Shown here piece after piece: positions 51,089 through 64,000 of a stretch of 64,000 bases of DNA. This stretch comes from Prochlorococcus sp. AG-363-K07 (lineage in GTDB: Bacteria > Cyanobacteriota > Cyanobacteriia > PCC-6307 > Cyanobiaceae). The DNA lies in the NCBI GenBank assembly GCA_003280225.1, contig QCFO01000011.1, forward strand, positions 1 through 64,000. The letters run 5' to 3'. The notes below the pieces were generated by a model, which did no database searches, was not told the DNA's origin, and saw only the letters and a list, made by a program, of their open reading frames with translations. Each line of letters starts with the position of its first letter. Positions within the stretch are counted from its first letter, which is position 1. The position numbers were made by a program, and so were the translations under genes.

Positions 51089-51904
51089 ATGGTCTTGGAT
51101 AAAATATCCCTTATAAAAGCTATTTTTGTTTTTATAATAGGATCTTGCTTCGGTAGTTTTGTTAATGTAGTAATTTATCGACTTCCTCGTGGCGAATCAG
51201 TTATTTCCCCAGGAAGTCATTGTATACAATGTAACTACAAGATCCGTTGGTTTGAAAATATACCTATAATCAGCTGGTTCCTTTTGAAAGGTAGGTGTAC
51301 ACATTGCAATACAAATATATCAGTTATATATCCTACATTGGAACTATTCTGTGCTCTTTTGTTCTTATTAAATAATTACTCTTCTCCATCGAGTTTTGAA
51401 ACCAGCTCAGAGCTAATGAGAATAATATTTGGATGGATTTTAATCTCAATACTACTTACGGTGGCAGTACTAGATATTAAATATTTTTGGATTCCGGACT
51501 CTAGTTGTAGATTTGGCTTGATATCGGGAATTGGATCTTCTGCAGTTTTAACACTATTATCACAAGATAATACTGGATTAACTTTGCTATTAGATTCAAT
51601 AATAGCTACATTTTTCGGTTACATAGCCTTTCGACTTATAAGTACGATTGGATTGCAACTCTTTAAACGACCTGCAATGGGTAAGGGAGATGCAAAGCTT
51701 TCAGCGATGTTGGGATCCTGGCTAGGGATACAAGGACTTTGTTTAACGATTTGGCTGGCATTTAACTTGGCAGGTATATATGTATTATTAGGCTTAATAA
51801 CAAAAAAGATTAATAGATACCAAAAGGTTCCATTTGGTGCTTTCTTAGCATCAGCTGGAATATTAGTATGGCATTTTGGTAATACAATGCTTTCTCCTTG
51901 GTAA
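51089..51904 (+). CDS. pilD: Prepilin peptidase (PilD, A24 family)
   Basis: 271-residue inner-membrane aspartyl protease that removes the leader of type IV prepilins and N-methylates the new N-terminus. Motifs: GSCFGSFVNVVIYRLPRG, two CxxC pairs (CIQCNY, CTHCNT) forming a zinc site, first catalytic aspartate region LDIKYFWIPD, and the GxGD motif GKGDAKLSAMLG. About eight hydrophobic segments. ATG 51089 gives a full-length protein. It is at the edge of the pilus locus and converges on pilC. Confidence 0.94.
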   Translation: MVLDKISLIKAIFVFIIGSCFGSFVNVVIYRLPRGESVISPGSHCIQCNYKIRWFENIPIISWFLLKGRCTHCNTNISVIYPTLELFCALLFLLNNYSSPSSFETSSELMRIIFGWILISILLTVAVLDIKYFWIPDSSCRFGLISGIGSSAVLTLLSQDNTGLTLLLDSIIATFFGYIAFRLISTIGLQLFKRPAMGKGDAKLSAMLGSWLGIQGLCLTIWLAFNLAGIYVLLGLITKKINRYQKVPFGAFLASAGILVWHFGNTMLSPW

Positions 51905-52027: not shown

Positions 52028-53386
52028 TTATCCAACAGTTTGCATCATGCTAAACATTGGTAAATACATTGCTATTAAGATAATGCCAACGAAAACAGCT
52101 ACAAAGACTATCATTAATGGTTCCATTATTGATGTCAATGCCTTAACACTCGCAGAGACTTCGTCTTCATAGAAATCTGCTAACTTTGTAATCATCTGAC
52201 TTAGTTCGCCTGTCTCTTCGCCAATACGGAACATGGATGTGAACATTGTTGGTATTACTTGCTCTTGATCTAATACCCTATAAATAGGGTTCCCTGATTG
52301 AATGTCTTTGTGCATTCTATCAATTATTCTGCTAAATACTCTGTTTGAGATAGTCCTTTTTGCTATTGTTAATGATTCCAAAATGGGCACACCAGCTGAA
52401 TTTAGTGAAGATAATGTTCTTGAGAAATTCGCCAAGCAAGATTTGGTAACAAGGTCTTTAGTAATCGGTAGCTGTAATAAAGCTTTGTCATACCACCACA
52501 TTACAGATGATTTGTTTGATAGATACTTTGCAAACCAATAAAATGTAAGTCCACTAGGAATAGCCTTCAAATAAAACTGACTTGACCTAAGTTGATTAGA
52601 AAAATCAACTAGCATTTGTGTTATACCTGGTAATGCGGCCCCTGATGTTTTATATATATCTACAAATATCGGGATAACAAAAAGCATCATTATAAAAACT
52701 ACCACGATTGTAAGAACAGCAATTGCGATGGGATATGCCATTGCACTTTGTATTTGACCTTTGATTTTTGCTAGGCTCTCTAGCAACTTTGCCTGACGGT
52801 CCAATGTGTCAGGTAAGAGGCCAGCAGTCTCTCCTGCTGTTACAAGAGCTCTATACATTGGGTTAAATACTTCTTGATATTTGTCCAGCATTTCAGACAT
52901 TGTTAAACCCTTACTTATTCCCACTGCTATTTCTTTAAACACGTATTTTATTGAGGTATTTTCTGATGTCTCGGAAATTATTTTTAATGCTTCTAATAAG
53001 GGTAAGCCTGTCCTAACCATAGATGCTAATTGTTTTGTAGCAACAGCCAAATCTTTTGTAGGAGGAGATTTAATCCTTCTGCCTTCCATGGAATTACGGA
53101 CTATCAATGTTTTTTGATCTGCTCGCAGTGATGTATCACCTTCTAAGTATTCTTTCCTTTCCTGAATCCTCCTCTCTACGTATGTTTTTAGAGTATAGAT
53201 CTTATTTTTCTGCCTTTTTCTTATTGACTTGTTTTTCACTGGCATCACCCTATCCATTTTCTTCTGTATTAATTTATTCTCATCTTTTGATGTCTTTTTG
53301 TTTCCATCATTGGATACTTTCCTCTTATAGCGGGCTCTTTCCATCAACCGCCTTAGCTTAGGATTTTCAATGTATTTGTAGCTCAC
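52028..53386 (-). CDS. pilC: Type IV pilus platform protein PilC (GspF family)
   Basis: 452-residue inner-membrane platform with two GspF domains. The N-terminal 100 residues are strongly basic (K/R-rich), then KQLASMVRTGLPLLEALKI and LAELE-like helices of the first domain (about 108-230), hydrophobic TM segments (for example IAIAVLTIVVVFIMMLFVIP), the second domain (about 310-430) and C-terminal TMs (LMIVFVAVFVGIILIAMYLP). It follows pilT (30 bases between), so pilB-pilT-pilC make one - strand operon. The long basic N-terminus is somewhat longer than in gammaproteobacterial PilC. Confidence 0.94.
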   Translation of the reverse strand: MSYKYIENPKLRRLMERARYKRKVSNDGNKKTSKDENKLIQKKMDRVMPVKNKSIRKRQKNKIYTLKTYVERRIQERKEYLEGDTSLRADQKTLIVRNSMEGRRIKSPPTKDLAVATKQLASMVRTGLPLLEALKIISETSENTSIKYVFKEIAVGISKGLTMSEMLDKYQEVFNPMYRALVTAGETAGLLPDTLDRQAKLLESLAKIKGQIQSAMAYPIAIAVLTIVVVFIMMLFVIPIFVDIYKTSGAALPGITQMLVDFSNQLRSSQFYLKAIPSGLTFYWFAKYLSNKSSVMWWYDKALLQLPITKDLVTKSCLANFSRTLSSLNSAGVPILESLTIAKRTISNRVFSRIIDRMHKDIQSGNPIYRVLDQEQVIPTMFTSMFRIGEETGELSQMITKLADFYEDEVSASVKALTSIMEPLMIVFVAVFVGIILIAMYLPMFSMMQTVG

Positions 53387-53416: not shown

Positions 53417-54490
53417 TTAAATATTATCTGTAGAGTTAATATCATTTAGTAAGCCCTTTAAAACATTGGGTCTATTGCATTTATACACAGCTTCATCTGT
53501 AGTTATTATGCCTTTAGCTACAAGTTGAGAAAGGGATTGCTCTAATGTTTGCATGCCATACTTTCCACCTATTTGAAGCTGTGAGTAAACCTGTGATGAT
53601 TTTGCCTCACGCACAAGATTTGCTATGGCATTATTATTCACTAGAATTTCGGCTGCTAAGGTCCTAGTATTATCTGTAGTTTTGCATAATGTTTGAGATA
53701 TCACACCTATGAGTGATGATGATAACTGAACTCTTATTTGCATCTGTTGAGATGTTGGGAAGACATCAATAATCCTATCTATAGTTTGTGCTGCAGAAGC
53801 AGTATGCAGAGTTCCCATAACAAGGTGACCTGTTTCTGCAGCTGTTATGGCTAAACTTATCGTTTCTAGATCCCTCATTTCACCGACTAGAATAATGTCA
53901 GGATCTTCACGTAGTGCTGATCGAAGAGCCTTAGAAAAAGAATTAGTATCTTCTCCTACTTCTCTTTGTCGAACTAAACAGTTTTTATTCTCATAGATAA
54001 ATTCAATTGGATCCTCAATTGTGAGTATATGATGTGCTTGATTAGTATTAATCCAGTCAATAGAGCTTGCTAAAGTTGTAGTTTTTCCTGAACCAGTAGG
54101 ACCAGTTACCAGTATTAGTCCTCTAGGTCTATTTAAAAGCTGTTGAACACTATCGGGAAGCCCTATCTTAGAAAAGCTAGGAATACTTGTATTCAATGCT
54201 CTCATAACACATGAGATCTTGCCCCTATCTAAAAAGAGATTTATTCTAAACCTTGCTATTCCGCTTAATCCATAACTACAATCAAAGTCCTTTTCTTGGT
54301 CAAAATTTTGGAGCTTTTGTTCTCCAAGCATATTTTCCAGTTGCTCCCTCAGCTCCGAACTTGGGAATGGTGAACTAGATGCTGGAAGTATTTGGCCCTG
54401 TATCCGAAAGTAAGGAACACTATCCCCTGTTAGATGTAAGTCAGAGCCATTTCTCTTGACTAATTCCGACATAAGTTCTGTAAGGTTCAT
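53417..54490 (-). CDS. pilT: Retraction ATPase PilT
   Basis: 357-residue hexameric ATPase that powers pilus disassembly. Walker A GPTGSGKTT lies at residues 130-138; the Asp box region TIEDPIEF, Walker B LREDPDIILVGEMRD and His box TLHTASAAQTIDRIIDVFP are intact. The N-terminal DNA-like domain LMSELVKRNGSDLHLTGDS is typical of PilT. Its start overlaps the pilB stop by four bases (ATGA), so it is translationally coupled to pilB. A retracting pilus is therefore likely. Confidence 0.95.
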   Translation of the reverse strand: MNLTELMSELVKRNGSDLHLTGDSVPYFRIQGQILPASSSPFPSSELREQLENMLGEQKLQNFDQEKDFDCSYGLSGIARFRINLFLDRGKISCVMRALNTSIPSFSKIGLPDSVQQLLNRPRGLILVTGPTGSGKTTTLASSIDWINTNQAHHILTIEDPIEFIYENKNCLVRQREVGEDTNSFSKALRSALREDPDIILVGEMRDLETISLAITAAETGHLVMGTLHTASAAQTIDRIIDVFPTSQQMQIRVQLSSSLIGVISQTLCKTTDNTRTLAAEILVNNNAIANLVREAKSSQVYSQLQIGGKYGMQTLEQSLSQLVAKGIITTDEAVYKCNRPNVLKGLLNDINSTDNI

Positions 54491-56310
54491 AGTTCTTCAG
54501 CTGGAGTTTCGTCTAACAAGCAGACTCGTTCTACTTCTTCAATTGTAGTCATCTGATTTTTGACTAGGTTCATTCCATAGACTAGTAAGCTTCTCCCTGC
54601 TTTAGTAAATGCATGTTCCCTTATTAAATCTGCATTTGATTGTTTCATAATTAGATCCCGAATGACGTCATTGACCTTCATTACCTCATAGATCCCTATA
54701 CGACCTTTATATCCAGTTCCACCGCAAATAGAGCATTTTGCTGTACCTGAAATAACAGTCTTCTTGAGAAAACGAGCTTGTTTAATGCCAAGATTCAATG
54801 CGAGGTCATCCTTACCATGTTGTAAATCTTTTATTGTGCTGCATGAGGGGCAAACTTTCCTAACTAATCTTTGAGCAACAACCCCAAGAATTGAAGATCC
54901 TATTAGGTACGGCGGTATTTCCATTTCTGCAAGCCTTGTTATAGCAGTAGCCGTATCATTAGCATGTAATGTTGTGAACACCATATGACCAGTTAAAGCT
55001 GCTTCCATTGCAGCTTGTGCAGTCTCCTTATCTCTCGTTTCGCCCACTAAAATTATGTCAGGATCTTGCCTCATAAGTGATCTTAGGGCTCTTGAAAAGT
55101 CTAACCCTTTTTCTCTAAGTACTTGAACTTGGTGAATACCATCAAGTGTATATTCAACAGGGTCCTCTACCGTACTTATATTGACATCTGGAGTATTTAA
55201 CTCACTTAACATGGAGTAAAGTGTTGTAGATTTTCCACTTCCAGTAGGACCAACAACAATTACTATCCCATAGGGTGATTTTGCCATTCCTCTTATTAAA
55301 GATAATTCATCTTTTTCTGTAATTAATTTAGATAGGTTAAGAACCGAGCTATCACTTTCGAGAGCTCTAAGGACTACTTTTTCTCCCCATTTGCCAGGCA
55401 AAGTACTTACTCTGAAATCTGACTTTCTTCCTCTTAATAAACAACGAATCCTACCATCCTGTGGAAGTCTTTTTTCTGATATATCTAGGTTACTCATTAT
55501 TTTTATTCTACTAACTATTGGATTAATATGGGACTTTGGAAATGCAAAAGCTTCTTTTAAAACACCATCAACTCTATAGCGAATCCGTAGACGATCTTCT
55601 AGGGGTTCTGCATGAATATCAGAACTTTTCAATATGAAACATTTACTTAAGATAGAGGCAACTCCAGCAATGACTGGATCTTTTGATGCTGTTAGTTCTT
55701 CTCCAAAGAACCTATCATTTTCAATATCAGAATCTTCACCAATATTTGCTTCGGCTAGTTGAATAAGGGCATCATCGTTTTCTTCATCCACAAGGTCTAG
55801 ATCAAATTCATCATCCTCTAATTCTTCTGCGTCGTAGGCAGTAGAGATTGAATCAAGTTGTTCATCTGGCTCTAGAACCGTAAAGTCGGGATTTGATGGA
55901 AATGGGCTAGTGAATTCACCCGAGCTATCCTGTATAGAGTTTTGATAGTCATCTCTTATATCGTTTGTCTTTGTGGAAGGTTCTACTTGGTAATTATTCT
56001 GATTAGATTTATTCGAAGAGCTCGCTGGAATTGATTCAGTATTTCCCGAGTGATTACTTTCGAACCAATTTTCCCACTCAAGTGGTGTTATTTGCTTTAA
56101 GGAAACTTCTAGTTGGAACTCTCTTTTTATTTTCTTAACGACTTGTTTGACCTTGATATAGTCTGGATTCATGGCACCTAAGTCTACAAATCCTTCGCCT
56201 ATATTCATTGCTATAAGTCCTGCGTCTTCGCATAATTCAGGCGTTAAAAAGGCATTAAGTTCATTTTGGCTCATATTTTTCATATCTTCTTTGATCTCAA
56301 AAGCTGACAT
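54487..56310 (-). CDS. pilB: Extension ATPase PilB
   Basis: 607-residue GspE-family ATPase driving pilus assembly. The N-terminal region has a short MshEN/GspE_N-like part (about 15-85) followed by a low-complexity and very acidic linker (about 150-200, with ELEDDEFDLDLVDEENDD). Walker A GPTGSGKST is at residues 354-362, Asp box TVEDPVEYTLDG, Walker B RQDPDIILVGETRD, and a zinc tetracysteine region CPSC ... CSICGGTGYKGR near the end. It is the first gene of the - strand operon. Start ATG 56310, 119 bases divergent from the pilus biogenesis operon on +. Confidence 0.95.
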   Translation of the reverse strand: MSAFEIKEDMKNMSQNELNAFLTPELCEDAGLIAMNIGEGFVDLGAMNPDYIKVKQVVKKIKREFQLEVSLKQITPLEWENWFESNHSGNTESIPASSSNKSNQNNYQVEPSTKTNDIRDDYQNSIQDSSGEFTSPFPSNPDFTVLEPDEQLDSISTAYDAEELEDDEFDLDLVDEENDDALIQLAEANIGEDSDIENDRFFGEELTASKDPVIAGVASILSKCFILKSSDIHAEPLEDRLRIRYRVDGVLKEAFAFPKSHINPIVSRIKIMSNLDISEKRLPQDGRIRCLLRGRKSDFRVSTLPGKWGEKVVLRALESDSSVLNLSKLITEKDELSLIRGMAKSPYGIVIVVGPTGSGKSTTLYSMLSELNTPDVNISTVEDPVEYTLDGIHQVQVLREKGLDFSRALRSLMRQDPDIILVGETRDKETAQAAMEAALTGHMVFTTLHANDTATAITRLAEMEIPPYLIGSSILGVVAQRLVRKVCPSCSTIKDLQHGKDDLALNLGIKQARFLKKTVISGTAKCSICGGTGYKGRIGIYEVMKVNDVIRDLIMKQSNADLIREHAFTKAGRSLLVYGMNLVKNQMTTIEEVERVCLLDETPAEEL

Positions 56311-56429: not shown

Positions 56430-56948
56430 ATGAAAAATAGTTTTTACAGGGGATTTTTAGATTTATCAATTAAAAACATCTTTCTGATTTGTGGATTTTT
56501 AATGATTGCTGGAGCTTCAGCCTCTGTCGCAATTTCGCAGGGCTCTAGGGTAAAAACAACCATTGTTGGCCAGCATGAACTGCCTGTTAAGAAGATCTTA
56601 GTCAATTCCCCCCTCCCTCCGGAGGCTCTCTTGCCTATGCCAGTAGGTAATTTGGATTTAGCGGCAAGAAAAGTGGCGAGCTCTAGGAATCCATTCCAAA
56701 AGCCTTCAGGCCTTCAAGCGGCAAATTTGGCTATTCTTAATAGACAAATTCAATTTAGTGGTATAGCAAAATCAGTTGATTCAGTCGTCGCAATGATAAA
56801 GACTACCGAAGGACAAGAGGCTTATGAAGTTGGCGATACTCTTGGCAACGGTTTTGTTGTTACGTCAATTTCAAGCATTGATGTGACTGTAGATATATCA
56901 GATGGCTTGAGAAATTATAGGCTTTCATTGAAGGAAATCAAAGATTAA
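56430..56948 (+). CDS. PilP/GspC-like pilus biogenesis protein
   Basis: 172 residues: a short N-terminal signal anchor (about 15-38, NIFLICGFLMIAGASASVAI) and a periplasmic part ending in a small beta domain (RQIQFSGIAKSVDSVVAMIK, GDTLGNGFVVTSIS). The layout, first in a pilM-N-O-Q-like operon, is that of PilP or a GspC-like adaptor which links the inner-membrane alignment complex with the secretin. In classical loci PilP follows PilO, so its position here is shifted. Sequence identity to known PilP appears low; the function is inferred from context. Confidence 0.65.
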   Translation: MKNSFYRGFLDLSIKNIFLICGFLMIAGASASVAISQGSRVKTTIVGQHELPVKKILVNSPLPPEALLPMPVGNLDLAARKVASSRNPFQKPSGLQAANLAILNRQIQFSGIAKSVDSVVAMIKTTEGQEAYEVGDTLGNGFVVTSISSIDVTVDISDGLRNYRLSLKEIKD

Positions 56949-56949
56949 T

Positions 56950-58437
56950 ATGGACAAGAAGAAGTTTGGGTCTAAATTCCTACATATTTTCGAAAAACTC
57001 GAGTATCTCTATAAGATATCAAATCGCAAATTGAATGCAAATTACTTGAGTAAGAGAGTAGATTCACTATTTAGTCGAAGGGTTAAGATCGAAGAGCTAA
57101 TCAATTTAGAAGGATATGGTAAAGCAACAAAGGCATTCATTAATAGAAAAATTAATCTTCCAAAATGGGCCACTGTAGATAGCTTTTCAAAGGCAGTTAG
57201 GCTTTTGATCAAAAATAAATTTGGGGTAACTACTGCTATTGAAACACATGGATCTCAATCGTCTAAGAAGAATAAAAGTGATTCAAAAATAGAAATTAAT
57301 TTTAAGGATAAGTTGATCAACTTATTTGTAGAATTAAAGCAATCAGTTGGCAAGGCCAGATCATCTTTACTTGAAAAGAAATCTTTAGCAAGCTCTGCCA
57401 AGAATTCAATTTTACGAACATTCTCATTCCAGACCATATTCAAGAGAATCGGATTATCAAGCCATTCGGTTATTAAACGACAAAATGAACCAAGCATAAA
57501 ACTTGCTAAAAATTCTCTGATCATAGGAGTTATCCTTTACAGTGATCATCTTTTAACATTAGCTAGGATAGGCATTACTCCTAACAAAAAAGTTGCAATC
57601 AGAGGAGTAGTTGAGGTACCTATCCCAGGACAAATTATAGGAGATAATCTTGTTGAAGATAGTAATGAATTGGCAGATATAATCTTAGACTTATTTAATC
57701 TATTGAACCTTAATAATTCTCCGTTATTAGTTGTTCTTTCTTCTTCATTCTTTAATATACACACATTCAGCTCATCAGAATTAAAAATAATATCTAATAC
57801 AGACTATAAAGTTCAATCAAAGAGTCCTTATCTCCCAGCGGATACATTTGTGGAATTTTTGAGGATGTCCCCAAAAGTTCATAAGGATAACCTGATAAGA
57901 GCAGTTTATTCAAGGAAACATACTATAGAGAGTTGGACTAATATGTTGGAGACTGTAAATGTTCCTATAATAGGTTTAACTCCTGCATCTCCAGTTGTTT
58001 TTGATATACTGACGGCAAAGATTTCAGAAAGAATTACAATTTTAATTGATATCGATATAAAATCTACAACTGTTCTAATTGGCAGTAAATCATCTAGCCT
58101 TGACTCCTTCAAACTACCATATGGTGCAAGTTTATATATGTCAGATTCAACTTATGAGTTAAGCCAAAATTACTTTACAAGGGTTTTTTCGTCTATTAAA
58201 TTAGCGATTGAAGAATATGATGAACAAATGCCAACCAATATATATGTCATGGGCCATGGTTTGGATTACTTAGTAAAAGAAGGTGGACCTTTACCAAAGA
58301 AATTCAGACGAGTGTCAGATATGGGGTTAGTGGATTATTCATATTCGCCTGCTAATATGGATATACATGAATTACATTCCAAATCTGTTGTTTCAACAGT
58401 TGATACGTTGGCAAATATTGCTTCATCATGCCTATAA
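56950..58437 (+). CDS. PilM-like actin-fold protein with long N-terminal extension
   Basis: 495 residues. The actin-like core appears to start near residue 188 (NSLIIGVILYSDHLLTLARI) and contains LIDIDIKSTTVLIG and YGASLYMSDS, in keeping with PilM. Typical PilM is about 350 residues; the first 187 here are an added K/R-rich, helical part with no clear homologue. It is cytoplasmic and should bind the PilN N-terminus and PilB. It begins one base after the PilP-like gene and overlaps the pilN-like gene by ten bases. Confidence 0.72.
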   Translation: MDKKKFGSKFLHIFEKLEYLYKISNRKLNANYLSKRVDSLFSRRVKIEELINLEGYGKATKAFINRKINLPKWATVDSFSKAVRLLIKNKFGVTTAIETHGSQSSKKNKSDSKIEINFKDKLINLFVELKQSVGKARSSLLEKKSLASSAKNSILRTFSFQTIFKRIGLSSHSVIKRQNEPSIKLAKNSLIIGVILYSDHLLTLARIGITPNKKVAIRGVVEVPIPGQIIGDNLVEDSNELADIILDLFNLLNLNNSPLLVVLSSSFFNIHTFSSSELKIISNTDYKVQSKSPYLPADTFVEFLRMSPKVHKDNLIRAVYSRKHTIESWTNMLETVNVPIIGLTPASPVVFDILTAKISERITILIDIDIKSTTVLIGSKSSSLDSFKLPYGASLYMSDSTYELSQNYFTRVFSSIKLAIEEYDEQMPTNIYVMGHGLDYLVKEGGPLPKKFRRVSDMGLVDYSYSPANMDIHELHSKSVVSTVDTLANIASSCL

Positions 58438-59138
58438 ATTATAACTTTGCTTTTAAAACCTCTAAATTACAGAGATGGAAAAAGCCAGCTCCTCAGAATT
58501 TACTTCTTTCAGATTCTAGTTTCCTCACCAAGCTTAAATATATATACAAGAAATTTACAGGAAATCCTGAGTTGTTTTATCCTTCATGCGTAGTTGTAAT
58601 TATTACATTGTTGATGCAAATTGCTATTATCTATCCAACTAGTAATATAAATAAATTGGAGGATAAGCATATGGAATATATTAAGGTAGCAAAACAATTA
58701 TCTAGGCTTAAATCAAAATCTAAAATTATGAATAAGCATCTTAAGAATCTTTCTGTATTCTTCACACAACCAACACCAGTTTATTTATTTGCTTTTTATC
58801 TGCAAAACTCAATTCCTAAGGGTGTTCAACTTAATAATTATTTTGTTAGTAATAATGGATTTGAAATATCTGCTAGCGCATACGACATTGAACCTCTAAA
58901 CGATATGGTTACATTATTAATTGAATCACCTATTGTAAATAGAGAATCATTGATCATTAATCGGATTAATGATACTGGACCAAATAAAGATATTCCCACA
59001 GTAATTTTAGAGCTTGAAGGTAATCTTCTCAAGCTTTCATTGGACAAGCGAGAGCGGCTTTATAAGGAGTCTCTGGCCGAAGGATTATTAAGAAAACTCC
59101 TAAGGTTTAGAACTTTACAGCAACTCATACGCTCCTAA
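58428..59138 (+). CDS. PilN-like inner-membrane assembly protein
   Basis: 236 residues with one transmembrane helix (about 50-72, FYPSCVVVIITLLMQIAIIY) after a basic cytoplasmic N-terminus, then coiled coil and an alpha/beta ferredoxin-like domain (ISASAYDIEPLNDMVTLLIE region). This is the layout of PilN, which pairs with PilO. It overlaps pilM by ten bases and pilO follows after four bases. Identity to characterised PilN looks low; assignment is by size, topology and position. Confidence 0.72.
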   Translation: MPINYNFAFKTSKLQRWKKPAPQNLLLSDSSFLTKLKYIYKKFTGNPELFYPSCVVVIITLLMQIAIIYPTSNINKLEDKHMEYIKVAKQLSRLKSKSKIMNKHLKNLSVFFTQPTPVYLFAFYLQNSIPKGVQLNNYFVSNNGFEISASAYDIEPLNDMVTLLIESPIVNRESLIINRINDTGPNKDIPTVILELEGNLLKLSLDKRERLYKESLAEGLLRKLLRFRTLQQLIRS

Positions 59139-59142
59139 TCAT

Positions 59143-60048
59143 ATGGCAAATTCCAAAAAGAAAAATCCATTTGTGGCTTATTTAAGTAAAGTTAATTCTA
59201 TAGATATTAACAAATTAATTTCGTCACTCAAAACAATAAAGCTCAAAGATTTTAAAAATATAGATTTAAGGAGCTTTGCTTCTAAGTTAAAAAAATCATC
59301 AATTCTAAAACCATCAATAGGTCTTTTGGGAGCGTCTTTTCTCTTTGGTATTTTTCTATTTCCGAGTTTAGAATCTTTTATCTCACAATTAAATAAATCT
59401 AGGCAATATCAGAAAGAGGCTAACAGTCTTGAATTGAGGAAAAGTGAATATATAGGCTTGAAGAGAAAAATTGAGAAATTGCAGGAAGCCATATCCATCG
59501 TAGATGGCTCAATTCTAAAAAAAGATGATCTTATATTTGTGAGTAATTTACTCAATCAAGCAGCAATAAAGTCCAATGTACAAATTGTATCGTTTACGCC
59601 GATCGATGTGGCTAAGTCTTCGAAATTATGTAAAGAGGATAATCAAGCAAAAATCAATCAAAGGAACATGAGGAAATTACGAAGATCCAATCAAAGAAAT
59701 AAGCGAAGGAATTCGAATAAAAAAGGACCCTTTGAATCCAATTTATATGAGATTAATCTTAAGTCAGATTATTTAAATATTATTGAGTTTATAAAGACTA
59801 TTCAATATTACGATGTTACAATAAATCCCCATTGTTTGGAGATAACAGCTAGACCAAATACAAGAAAAATCGCTCCTAACAGTAGTAATTCATCAGAGTT
59901 AGATTTGAGTTCCACCATCATTACACCCTTATCCCAATCAGGTCAGCCCTTAAAGTCGCCTGGTCGGACTGACGAACTAAATGAATTTGGACCTGGCGGA
60001 CTTGTAATCGCTAGATTGATATTAAGAATACCCTCCCATATCAGATAA
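59143..60048 (+). CDS. PilO-like inner-membrane assembly protein
   Basis: 301 residues: a lysine-rich N-terminus, one TM helix (about 57-77, IGLLGASFLFGIFLFPSL), coiled coil (about 85-120) and a periplasmic alpha/beta domain, as in PilO. An unusual polar, very basic stretch (about residues 172-195, with NQRNMRKLRRSNQRNKRRN) interrupts the periplasmic domain. It follows pilN-like by four bases. The 145 bases before pilQ contain a 7-bp perfect palindrome near 60134-60149. Confidence 0.7.
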   Translation: MANSKKKNPFVAYLSKVNSIDINKLISSLKTIKLKDFKNIDLRSFASKLKKSSILKPSIGLLGASFLFGIFLFPSLESFISQLNKSRQYQKEANSLELRKSEYIGLKRKIEKLQEAISIVDGSILKKDDLIFVSNLLNQAAIKSNVQIVSFTPIDVAKSSKLCKEDNQAKINQRNMRKLRRSNQRNKRRNSNKKGPFESNLYEINLKSDYLNIIEFIKTIQYYDVTINPHCLEITARPNTRKIAPNSSNSSELDLSSTIITPLSQSGQPLKSPGRTDELNEFGPGGLVIARLILRIPSHIR

Positions 60049-60193: not shown

Positions 60194-61888
60194 TTGTCTA
60201 AGCGTAAATCTCAAGCCCTTTCAATTTTCATATTAGGAGCTACTAGCTTAGTCGGCTTCGGCTCCTTGGCTGCAGAACGAGTAATCGGTAGTCAAGTAGG
60301 GAATGATGTTACATTTCCACAAAAGACATCCGTCGATCTTAATAAGGAGAACCAAGAAAATATCTATTCCTTACAAGATAAGCAAAATGATACTTCTTCT
60401 CAATATCCTATAATTAATCCCAATTTGTTAAATATTAAAGGCCCTGATGTTACTCTAATATTTAAAAAGACAGAGGCAAAAGAAATATTTGAATATCTTG
60501 CAAAAGTTGCAAATTATGGATTTGTATGGGTAAAGAATAATCCTACTGCTGATGAGTCACAGGATGTTGATGGGCAGAGAATGATTACATTGACGCTAAG
60601 AGAAGTTAGCTATAAAAGAGCATTTAATGCCTTATTGCTTGCCAGTGGGCTGCAGGCAAAGTTATATAACAATGTATTGTATATTGGCCCCAATGTTAGG
60701 AACACGGTCTTTACAAGTAGAAGCACTGGTGTGTACCAACTAAATCAAATCAGTGCCAGTTCAGCTGCCGACTATCTCGCAAATCTTGGAGCTAGTGTTA
60801 CTAAAACCTATACGATTAAGACTTCAGTCACTCAGGGAGCATCACAATCTCAGGCAGTTCAGGGTGGATCGACTTCATCTACTACAACAGATCAATCTGA
60901 GACTTCTGTAAAAGTTTATGGCGCCACAATCGGTCCTTTAGTTGGTTTAATCGCTACTACCGATGAACGATTGCAAACTGTCACTATGGTCGGAGAGAAG
61001 AATCTAATTGATCTTGCTTCAGTATTTCTTCAGAGACTGGATAAGATGCAAAAACAAGTAGCACTTAGTGTCCGTGTTCTTGATGTAAACCTAACAGATA
61101 AGGATGGCTTTACTCAGACATGGGGGTCTACATTTAAAGGCGGATCTCCATTTATCGTAGGAAGTGGCGGAATCATAAAGTCTGCTATTGGTCGCTGGGT
61201 TCCTCAATATGGTGAGCCAGAAAAAAATCCTGGTCGATCTTATCCGAGCAAAACCAACTTCTTTGGTTTATTGGAAGCTAGCATTGAATCTGGCTCCGCT
61301 AAAGTTCTAGCTAGTCCAACACTTCTACTCAGCGAGTCCTCAGGTGCTGCAGGAGTAGCAGATATTGGTAGAAAGTTTGGTAATGAAGGTTTTGTTGAGG
61401 TTGGAGACAAGGTTGCTATTGACGCAACATATAGTGATGGTGCATGTAAATTTTCCTATGGCCTAGTCGGAGTCAAGCTAGGGGCTAAGGTCCTAGGAAT
61501 TGATCAAAATAATTATATAACTTTTACCATGTCACCTTTAGTGACAGGTATATCCAGTAGTTTGACTATTACTGGTTGTGGCGAAGTCTCTATTCTTAAT
61601 ACACGGAGAGTTGATACTGGTTCTGTTCGTATTAAGGATGGGGAAACACTTGTTTTGACAGGAGTAATACAGGATACGGATATCGAAAAAATTTATAAAT
61701 ACCCATTGTTAGGAGATCTTCCTCTATTAGGTTCTTTATTTCGATCAAGGAACAATGAATTTAAAAAGAGAGAACTTATTGTGTTAGTTACACCTAGAAT
61801 AGTAAAAGACAGTGGATCTAATCTGGACAGTTTTGACTTGAAATTCAGCGACAATGATTCCAAGAAATTTATTGAACAATTAAAATAG
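60194..61888 (+). CDS. pilQ: Secretin PilQ
   Basis: 564-residue outer-membrane secretin. A signal peptide (LSIFILGATSLVGFGSLAAE) is followed by N-domains (about 85-200) and the secretin domain (about 285-545), which contains VLASPTLLLSESSG and NTRRVDTGSVRIKDGETLVLTGV, ending in PLLGDLPLLGSLFRSRNNE and ELIVLVTPRIV, hallmark secretin end sequences. A TTG start at 60194 gives the signal peptide, so it is preferred. It completes the + strand operon and should form the pore for the pilus. Confidence 0.93.
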   Translation: MSKRKSQALSIFILGATSLVGFGSLAAERVIGSQVGNDVTFPQKTSVDLNKENQENIYSLQDKQNDTSSQYPIINPNLLNIKGPDVTLIFKKTEAKEIFEYLAKVANYGFVWVKNNPTADESQDVDGQRMITLTLREVSYKRAFNALLLASGLQAKLYNNVLYIGPNVRNTVFTSRSTGVYQLNQISASSAADYLANLGASVTKTYTIKTSVTQGASQSQAVQGGSTSSTTTDQSETSVKVYGATIGPLVGLIATTDERLQTVTMVGEKNLIDLASVFLQRLDKMQKQVALSVRVLDVNLTDKDGFTQTWGSTFKGGSPFIVGSGGIIKSAIGRWVPQYGEPEKNPGRSYPSKTNFFGLLEASIESGSAKVLASPTLLLSESSGAAGVADIGRKFGNEGFVEVGDKVAIDATYSDGACKFSYGLVGVKLGAKVLGIDQNNYITFTMSPLVTGISSSLTITGCGEVSILNTRRVDTGSVRIKDGETLVLTGVIQDTDIEKIYKYPLLGDLPLLGSLFRSRNNEFKKRELIVLVTPRIVKDSGSNLDSFDLKFSDNDSKKFIEQLK

Positions 61889-61936: not shown

Positions 61937-63433
61937 TTATTTGATGTGTGCACACATAGACTCTGCCCCACTTGATACCAAACCTAACCAATTATTTTGA
62001 TAATAATTCTTGGATGATTCACAGAAGTTGTGGAAATATGATATGCTATCTATAATCAATGATCCTATATTGCTTTTACTTCTTGTAATCATATTGTAGT
62101 CATTTATTATTTCATCATAACTTCCTGTTTTACCAAAGCATGTAATTTCAGAACTAAGAGGTCGAGAAGCGCTTAAAATTATTATTTGGCCAACATATTC
62201 TTGTTCAATTGTTTTACAGATGTCGAGCCATGGATTAATACTTAGTGAACTATCTATCGGTAGTTTATTAATGAAATCTATTGCATTAATTTTACGATCG
62301 GATGTTAGTTCTCTTGGCCTCGGATCTTCTACATTACCAAATAGGTATCTGGAATCCCCGCCACTAAATGCTATTACCTGGATAGATATCTTCTTGCCCC
62401 CTGTCGTTATATCTGATGCGGGTAACTTTTCTATATGGCGCTTAAGACTATATTTTGCTGATTTGAATAAACTTTGTCCATTTATTCTAGGAGAAATCTC
62501 TGGATTTTCCTCATTTTGTACCCACTCCCCATCAATAATAGAACCATTTGGGTGAAATATATATCTCTCATCCATTACAAAAGAACGGTCAATCATATAT
62601 GTAACCTTATTAGATTTTAGGCAAACTCCAAGCCAGCAACAGTTCCCTCCATTGCAAAGTAGCGTATTAGAGCTTTCTCCCAAGTTGGGTGGTCTAAGGT
62701 TTAGCTGCCTTTCATCTTGAATAGTGCTGAATCCTCCCGTAGATGCTATCGACTTTATTACATCTTTATTATTAATTGTCTGGGGATCTTCGGCCTCTAT
62801 TTGTATCTCAATTGACTTCTTGTATTCATCTATACAAAATGTTATTCCCTTTATAGTCTTAAGATTATCAATCCAGCTATCCGGGCATTCTATTTTCTTA
62901 TATTCTCCTGATCCTGTTATCCCATCTAATAGAACTGTTTCTTTGAAGTCCTGAAAGGATGGTGAAATGTAATATCCTTTCTTATCGTACTGTGGACCAT
63001 ACCTTACTAGTGTATATGGTTTTTTTTCGTCGCTATTGCTTGGCCTGAGTGTATACACTATTGGACACTCAACTTGGCTTAAATTAAACAGATTGCCTTC
63101 AGGACTGTAGTCCCCTTCTACAAGTGCTTGATCAGGTAATCTAATTCCAAATATGAACTCGCCGTCATTAGGAAATGTACAGTTGCTATTTAGACTAGTT
63201 ACTTCAGACTCATCTTCAATAAGTCTTTTTCCTACTTTTATTTCATCTAATATAAAGTCTAGAGTATCATTTAATTTACCGCTTAGTCCCATTTGAGTTT
63301 CGTCAATCTTATTTCCTTTTAACCCTACTTGTATAATAGTATAACCAAGAGCCAGCATACTAATAGAAACAGCACCTGCGAGAATTAATTCCACAATAGT
63401 AAAACCACTTTTGTTGTTATTTTGCCTGTTCAT
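61937..63433 (-). CDS. Large prepilin-like protein with vWA-like C-terminal domain
   Basis: 498 residues. The prepilin leader is MNRQNNNKSG then FTIVELILAGAVSISMLALG, with cleavage expected after Gly10 and Glu15 as mature Glu5. The usual minor pilins are much shorter. A cysteine-rich segment (Cys260, Cys265, Cys266, Cys271 in NTLLCNGGNCCWLGVC) follows, and the C-terminal part from about 275 (VTYMIDRSFVMDE, KISIQVIAFSGGD, LSINPWLDI, IIILSASRPLS) has the strand order of a von Willebrand A domain with a degenerate MIDAS (IDRSFV instead of DxSxS, SASRP where SDGxP is usual). Adhesive or tip role is inference. It is four bases after the next partial pilin gene. Confidence 0.72.
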   Translation of the reverse strand: MNRQNNNKSGFTIVELILAGAVSISMLALGYTIIQVGLKGNKIDETQMGLSGKLNDTLDFILDEIKVGKRLIEDESEVTSLNSNCTFPNDGEFIFGIRLPDQALVEGDYSPEGNLFNLSQVECPIVYTLRPSNSDEKKPYTLVRYGPQYDKKGYYISPSFQDFKETVLLDGITGSGEYKKIECPDSWIDNLKTIKGITFCIDEYKKSIEIQIEAEDPQTINNKDVIKSIASTGGFSTIQDERQLNLRPPNLGESSNTLLCNGGNCCWLGVCLKSNKVTYMIDRSFVMDERYIFHPNGSIIDGEWVQNEENPEISPRINGQSLFKSAKYSLKRHIEKLPASDITTGGKKISIQVIAFSGGDSRYLFGNVEDPRPRELTSDRKINAIDFINKLPIDSSLSINPWLDICKTIEQEYVGQIIILSASRPLSSEITCFGKTGSYDEIINDYNMITRSKSNIGSLIIDSISYFHNFCESSKNYYQNNWLGLVSSGAESMCAHIK

Positions 63434-63437
63434 CTAA

Positions 63438-64000
63438 TTATGATGAGATACAATTATTAGGGACAAGAATATCACCAGGAAGAAGCTGACTTACGGCCAT
63501 ATTTGATGATATCCAATAGCTTGTTATGAAGTTGCCTTTCCTAATCTGGCCTGTGGGTGTTTTGATTACAAGGCATTTTAATGTTTTAGGTCCAGAATTG
63601 TGGTATGCGGAACCTATTACAATGACAATTGCTTTGTCAGAGCTTATCCTTCCGTTAGGAGTGACTTCAAAATTCTTGCTAATAACTTGAAAAATAGAGT
63701 TATTTATTGGAGGTACAATAGATCCTATTTTAGATGTTTGGTTTGCAGGAATATTTGGATCATATGCTTCTTCACAGCTAACTGAATAACCAAAATAGTC
63801 TTTATCACTTGGAACAGAATTATAACCGATAGAATTGGTATTGATATAGCAATTAGTGCCCCATCTCCTAGCATGAAGTCTAACTATTCTTAAGTACTCC
63901 CTGAGTTGCCTTGTATATGAGTTAACTTTTTCTGCTCTAATCCAATTAAGAGAATTCCCTACTATTATGCCAGAAAATGTAGAAATTATTCCGATAACTA
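63438..64000 (-). CDS. Pilin-like (GspH/FimT-type) protein, N-terminus beyond window
   Basis: The frame is open to the window edge. Visible is a hydrophobic start (VIGIISTFSGIIVGNSLNWI), the conserved Arg/Glu helical stretch (YTRQLREYLRIVRLHARRW) and a beta-rich C-terminal region with two cysteine pairs (NCYIN, VSCEE; LKCLV, NNCIS), ending in NNCISS. Length visible about 187 residues. It directly precedes the vWA-like pilin, and the two should be minor pilins that initiate or tip the fibre. Confidence 0.65.
   Translation of the reverse strand, partial: VIGIISTFSGIIVGNSLNWIRAEKVNSYTRQLREYLRIVRLHARRWGTNCYINTNSIGYNSVPSDKDYFGYSVSCEEAYDPNIPANQTSKIGSIVPPINNSIFQVISKNFEVTPNGRISSDKAIVIVIGSAYHNSGPKTLKCLVIKTPTGQIRKGNFITSYWISSNMAVSQLLPGDILVPNNCISS

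Follow-up and report, generated by a model that had tools for sequence, protein, structure and literature searches.

The minor-pilin operon of a type IV pilus locus in the window (the whole 64,000-nucleotide stretch of Prochlorococcus DNA analysed) ends with a gene (61937..63433, minus strand) whose 498-residue product combines a prepilin N terminus, a cysteine-rich linker, and a von Willebrand A-like (vWA) domain with a degenerate MIDAS metal site. The protein is probably a modular type IV minor pilin that presents its vWA domain at the pilus tip, the domain having become metal-free in the lineage of the window.

Architecture and predicted fold of the pilin-vWA protein

The reading frame starts with ATG, 4 nt past the preceding minor-pilin frame, the stop of which lies at 63438. 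Type IV prepilins are recognized by a short hydrophilic leader ending in Gly, a Phe directly after it, a Glu at mature position 5, and a hydrophobic helix. The window protein has each of these, with a class III leader at residues 1–10 (63404..63433, minus strand), a predicted cleavage after Gly10 and before Phe11 in MNRQNNNKSG^FTIVEL, and Glu15 as the mature Glu5, followed by the hydrophobic helix. Gly10, Phe11, and Glu15 are invariant or nearly so in the homologue alignment. The Pfam N_methyl model was not detected in the window protein itself and scores above its cut-off in the homologue L023 (24.9 versus 21.2 bits). The prepilin N terminus noticed in the preliminary description is confirmed. 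The window protein alone gave no Pfam or NCBIfam family match; 23 relatives align to it end to end at 30–65% identity, which places the architecture beyond chance.

The pilin module (residues 11 to ∼240; 62714..63403, minus strand) was modeled by AlphaFold2 as a helix (residues 13–67) followed by a β-rich head extending to about residue 235, an arrangement that a pilin would be expected to show, and contains conserved cysteines at positions 85, 123, 183, and 200. The module matches no Pfam pilin family, so that the assignment of the protein to the PilW/GspJ position is taken from gene order alone. No pilin was present among the PDB fold matches listed for the window model (Foldseek), and when the family profile was run against PDB sequences, the matches were all weak, consisting of geopilins aligned over the N-terminal helix and a single unrelated entry.

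The linker carries the four-cysteine cluster reported earlier, with Cys residues at exactly 260, 265, 266, and 271 (62621..62656, minus strand) in the alignment and cysteine table. Cys266 and Cys271 are jointly present or jointly absent in all but 3 of 32 Prochlorococcus-type rows; the exceptions (L051, L053, and L056, which form one clade) have Cys265 and Cys271 as their only linker cysteines. The simplest reading of this pattern would be a pair of disulfides, Cys260–Cys265 and Cys266–Cys271, a pairing that fits every Prochlorococcus member except these three. The linker cysteines differ between clades and are absent in most members from larger genomes. Within the vWA part, Cys432, Cys471, and Cys494 are conserved in Prochlorococcus members.

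The vWA domain comprises residues 276–498 (61940..62608, minus strand). The AlphaFold2 model of the window protein has a mean pLDDT of 79.3 and a pTM of 0.51; values are largely below 50 for residues 243–263 and roughly 76–94 per ten-residue block from residue 271 onward. Because the pTM is only 0.51, the model does not predict the relative placement or orientation of the pilin and vWA modules. Two end-to-end homologues exceed the Pfam cut-off (27) for VWA_3 (L019, 28.6 bits, 42% identical in the alignment; L029, 28.5 bits), which gives the vWA profile match that the window protein alone lacks, and L021, L023, and L024 have VWA matches under the cut-offs with E-values of 8e-6 to 4e-4. The five best Foldseek matches of the window model in the PDB were ITIH1 (E = 1.9e-5), chain 6ro4_D of a TFIIH complex, the integrin α1 and α2 I-domains, and Sec24, all of which carry vWA-type domains; two of the five have E ≤ 0.001. 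The same search with L046, a relative with an intact MIDAS, returned 54 matches at E ≤ 0.001, mostly to vWA-bearing chains. Structure prediction, fold search, and homologue profiles agree in predicting a Rossmann-like vWA fold for the C-terminal domain, as had been proposed from the sequence. Three of the four strands named in that proposal are strands of the model (276–282, 350–356, and 416–421), whereas the fourth, LSINPWLDI, corresponds to the loop at the MIDAS Thr position and then helix 402–409.

It had also been considered that the C-terminal part might be an unrelated β/α fold or the frame a chimera, a reading to which the absence of a Pfam match in the window protein by itself would lend some color. 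It is refuted at the level of prediction by the end-to-end homologues that pass VWA_3, by the vWA and I-domain fold matches, by relatives in 12 genera in one search, and by the conserved gene order, and we regard it as extremely improbable.

The pilus locus and the distribution of the fusion

A complete type IV pilus locus is carried by the window and its contig. Immediately upstream of the pilin-vWA gene is a FimU/GspH-like minor pilin gene (63438..64000, minus strand, running past the window to contig position 64172), and further upstream in the operon are genes for a PilV-like pilin, a 736-residue PilX/GspK-like protein, and a PilA-like pilin. The order PilA-X-PilV-FimU-pilin-vWA, with the pilin-vWA gene last and convergent with PilQ-O-N-M-P, is kept in the Prochlorococcus loci examined, with a single variant in which FimU precedes PilA. 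On the convergent side are the PilQ secretin (60194..61888, plus strand; Pfam Secretin, 98.9 bits) and PilP/PilM/PilN/PilO-like genes (56430..60048, plus strand), where PilN has a weak Pfam match and the rest are placed by position; the names PilM, PilO, PilP, PilV, and PilX are positional, without database matches. Beyond these are the assembly ATPase PilB (54487..56310, minus strand), the retraction ATPase PilT (53417..54490, minus strand; TIGR01420, 468.7 bits, above cut-off), the platform protein PilC (52028..53386, minus strand; best NCBIfam match, under its equivalog cut-off), and a probable prepilin peptidase PilD (51089..51904, plus strand), read from the sequence and without an NCBIfam match. 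No terminator was found between the pilin-vWA gene and pilQ, where promoter-like sites were at background.

The PilX/GspK-like protein (contig 64681–66891, minus strand; L003:10681–12891) has no Pfam or NCBIfam match, has Gln in place of Glu at mature position 5, and keeps a length of ∼710–770 residues in almost every relative with a complete copy. A small divergent pilin-like frame adjoining PilA (L003:13947–14465, plus strand) occurs in several relatives at 43–67% identity.

With the window protein as query, one search recovered relatives from 12 of 59 genera of the family (30 of 400 genomes); the preliminary description had proposed searching picocyanobacterial genomes for the same fusion. 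The named relatives are Prochlorococcus single-cell genomes, isolates such as MIT 9302, and one short Synechococcaceae fragment. One further locus of Prochlorococcus type (L051, PBXW01000005.1) lies on a contig labeled as a Crocinitomicaceae MAG, which is probably misbinned. A contig scan with the single sequence detected no relatives, whereas an alignment-based scan did, and phage records contained no match to the window protein. The alignment-based search also found pilin-vWA fusions of 520–550 residues at the same operon position in larger genomes (mostly 2.4–3.3 Mb), which are probably Synechococcus. Across 292 genomes of the phylum, full-length matches came from this family only and, elsewhere, the matches listed covered the pilin or the vWA part alone; these homology searches are compatible with unrelated pilin-vWA fusions, which may exist elsewhere in the phylum. 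No intact paralogue was detected in nine genomes of the degenerate type that are at least 90% complete (the window's own and G005, G100, G121, G201, G263, G310, G373, and G383), each with one match.

Larger-genome relatives have a further, paralogous minor-pilin operon, whose terminal gene encodes a pilin with an RTX calcium-binding domain in place of the vWA domain (L092:9782–11128, minus strand, PF00353 50.3 bits; L085:5086–6459, plus strand, PF00353 22.5 bits, just under cut-off; L089:8521–9825, plus strand, by reading of the sequence). Both kinds of pilin occur within one 18 kb in L085. The corresponding minor-pilin gene thus seems to carry exchangeable C-terminal modules.

Loss of the MIDAS and constraint on the remaining domain

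The MIDAS (DxSxS...T...D) is common, and not universal, in the vWA superfamily. In the window protein, the first motif reads Asp282-Arg-Ser284-Phe-Val286 (62576..62590, minus strand), so that Asp and the first Ser of the canonical DxSxS are kept and the second Ser is lost, while the Thr position is Ile399 (62237..62239, minus strand) and the distal Asp position Ala422 (62168..62170, minus strand) in the MIDAS alignment. The partial loss suspected from the sequence is therefore real, the five positions (D,S,V,I,A) departing from the canonical site. Among the 39 aligned members, 20 have D,S,S,T,D, including all seven from larger genomes, and many Prochlorococcus members retain an intact MIDAS. 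Across the 16 rows of the degenerate clade, Asp282 and Ser284 are invariant, the second Ser is Phe, Asn, Leu, Tyr, Val, or Ala, the Thr is Ile, Ser, or Val, and the Asp is Ala or Ser. L015, which branches off early in this clade, has the intermediate state D,S,S,S,D. In a distant branch (L026 and L027) the site is lost differently (A,N,S,K,G), a second independent loss.

A maximum-likelihood tree was made without the MIDAS columns and rooted on the seven larger-genome members, which are distant (15–18% identity) and assumed to be the true outgroup. The window protein groups with L005 (100/99), and this pair is nested in clades of 12 rows (100/97) and 17 rows (100/98) in which the site is lost or altered. 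Two changes of MIDAS state are required on this tree, and hence the intact site is most simply ancestral and was lost twice; the loss in the window's clade is most simply derived.

The domain that remains is under purifying selection and not freely decaying, as judged from low dN/dS, invariant columns, and a clade-specific motif. Pairwise NG86 estimates of dN/dS for the vWA part within the degenerate clade are about 0.05–0.25 for most closer pairs; comparisons of distant subclades, whose dS is nearly saturated, give higher values, up to about 0.5. Constraint on the pilin module is in most cases somewhat stronger, the dN of the vWA part often being 1.3–2 times that of the pilin module. No variation is seen across the clade in 41 of the 211 vWA columns, and essentially all members retain the full-length domain. 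One gene copy (L018; G153:C32) has in-frame stops in the vWA part and is either a pseudogene or an assembly error. Beside the first MIDAS motif is a hairpin arm, His294-x-Asn-Gly-xxxx-Gly-x-Trp304 (62522..62554, minus strand), with model strands at 297–300 and 303–306. All 17 members of the clade formed by L015 and the degenerate rows carry its motif, HxNGxxxxGxW, whereas none of the 22 others does. The arm is a putative binding surface.

Known systems and possible roles at the pilus tip

The preliminary description had likened the protein to PilB of Streptococcus sanguinis, a comparison that holds for design and not for detectable sequence similarity, no PilB chain having been found by sequence. 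PilB likewise has a class III leader and a pilin module onto which a C-terminal vWA domain is grafted by a short linker, a processed size of 454 residues (488 here), and arms beside the MIDAS (PMC8179133). Its MIDAS is canonical, whereas that of the window protein is lost; the Cys-cluster linker and the PilQ-containing locus of a diderm cyanobacterium belong to the window protein. The window protein has the pilin module and C-terminal vWA by which modular vWA pilins are defined (PMC8179133) and, since its MIDAS ligands are replaced, it is filed as a probable variant of the PilB-type design rather than a PilB orthologue. In PilB, the vWA module sits on the pilin and is modeled at the pilus tip only; the substitution D319A abolishes metal binding and leaves structure, piliation, and in vitro ligand binding intact, while metal is required for twitching and cell adhesion (PMC8179133).

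PilY1/PilC of Pseudomonas, Myxococcus, and Neisseria has in some cases a vWA domain, displayed alongside a minor-pilin complex at the tip (PMC8806160, PMC7541494). PilY1 contains a β-propeller and does not belong to the pilins, whereas here the vWA domain is fused to the pilin itself; the window protein has no Pfam match to the C-terminal propeller PF05567, and its C-terminal half is the vWA domain. A search for PilY1 found nothing in this genome, in 146 genomes across the phylum, or in any control genome, so that PilY1 may be present nonetheless. Nearer at hand, the larger-genome vWA pilins (L084, L085, L086, L087, L090, and L091; probably Synechococcus) are homologous and share architecture and operon position; they differ in an intact MIDAS (DGSGSM...GGTxPW...[ST]DG), another long insert after the MIDAS motif, the lack of linker cysteines in most, and an overall identity of 15–18%. 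The PilA1-type pili of marine picocyanobacteria (PMC7994388) are very likely the same system (pilA, pilC-T-B, pilMNOQ, and minor pilins beside pilA); the paper describing them makes no mention of von Willebrand domains and leaves the neighboring genes as unknown.

From these comparisons a mechanism can be proposed. PilD would remove the 10-residue leader, and the pilin module would join the FimU-like, PilV-like, and PilX/GspK-like partners in the priming complex that initiates the pilus, and would so come to lie at its tip, a location suggested by the size of the protein and its operon with minor pilins. By analogy with S. sanguinis PilB, the vWA domain, on its Cys-rich linker, would then project from the tip. 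The ancestral domain would have had a working MIDAS; in the window's Prochlorococcus lineage the ligands were replaced (D,S,V,I,A) with the predicted fold kept, and the HxNGxxxxGxW arm arose next to the former site. On this reading, the domain most likely remains functional in a metal-free form, either contributing to the structure of the tip or offering a binding surface that needs no metal.

Loss of the MIDAS in this clade is compatible with a pilus that still assembles and lacks metal-dependent adhesion, as PilB D319A keeps piliation while adhesion and twitching need metal. Such a loss would fit the reported role of picocyanobacterial pili, which raise drag, hinder grazing, and prevent sinking (PMC7994388). 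PilT is kept in the window and in many relatives, so that retraction may still occur. The loci examined give no support to a connection between loss of the MIDAS and loss of PilT, since the window and many degenerate-clade loci have retained PilT.

Other roles for the vWA domain were weighed against this metal-free tip pilin. If Asp282 and Ser284, with water or other residues, still held a metal, the protein would be a conventional MIDAS adhesin binding particles or cell surfaces as PilB does, and the invariance of both residues in 16 of 16 degenerate-clade rows despite three changed ligands, together with the design and function of PilB, would suit this. Yet substitutions, for the most part to hydrophobic residues or Ala, affect three of the five ligands, and a single change suffices to abolish metal binding in PilB (D319A; PMC8179133). 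We therefore hold a retained metal site to be improbable; classical MIDAS adhesion is likewise unlikely in the window's clade, because the metal site that PilB-type cell adhesion needs has been lost. The domain might instead be a mechanosensor whose disulfides, in the linker or the vWA part, open when the tip is under force, a mechanism suggested for Pseudomonas aeruginosa PilY1, where Cys152 of the vWA domain affects surface sensing (PMC8806160). The conserved Cys-rich linker and Cys432, Cys471, and Cys494 accord with such a role, which the variation of the linker cysteines between clades and the rarity of surfaces in the life of a planktonic cell nevertheless make doubtful. Finally, the domain could be vestigial, decaying since attachment was given up, with the pilin module alone of importance. 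Two losses of the MIDAS, the higher dN of the vWA part, and the L018 copy with its stops point that way; a dN/dS well below 1, the invariant columns, the retained length, and the new conserved arm motif point against it, and we judge decay quite unlikely.

A further proposal, which we put forward tentatively as a minority possibility, is that in an open-ocean Prochlorococcus lineage the metal-dependent adhesion site of the tip was exchanged for a metal-independent surface, the hairpin beside the filled MIDAS pocket, which would have turned a pilus for attachment into one for flotation or defense that does not stick, or into one with a new ligand. A literature search, incomplete in coverage, found no paper describing a cyanobacterial vWA pilin or the loss of its metal site, and no experiment on these proteins. 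vWA modular pilins were already known and belong to a diverse range of modular pilins (PMC8179133); the present family extends the vWA kind to Prochlorococcus, and the RTX calcium-binding domain in the corresponding pilin of a related operon suggests a swappable effector module. The authors of PMC7994388 asked what sets attachment pili apart from flotation pili, and a tip domain whose MIDAS some lineages retain and others have lost would be a direct molecular candidate for that difference.
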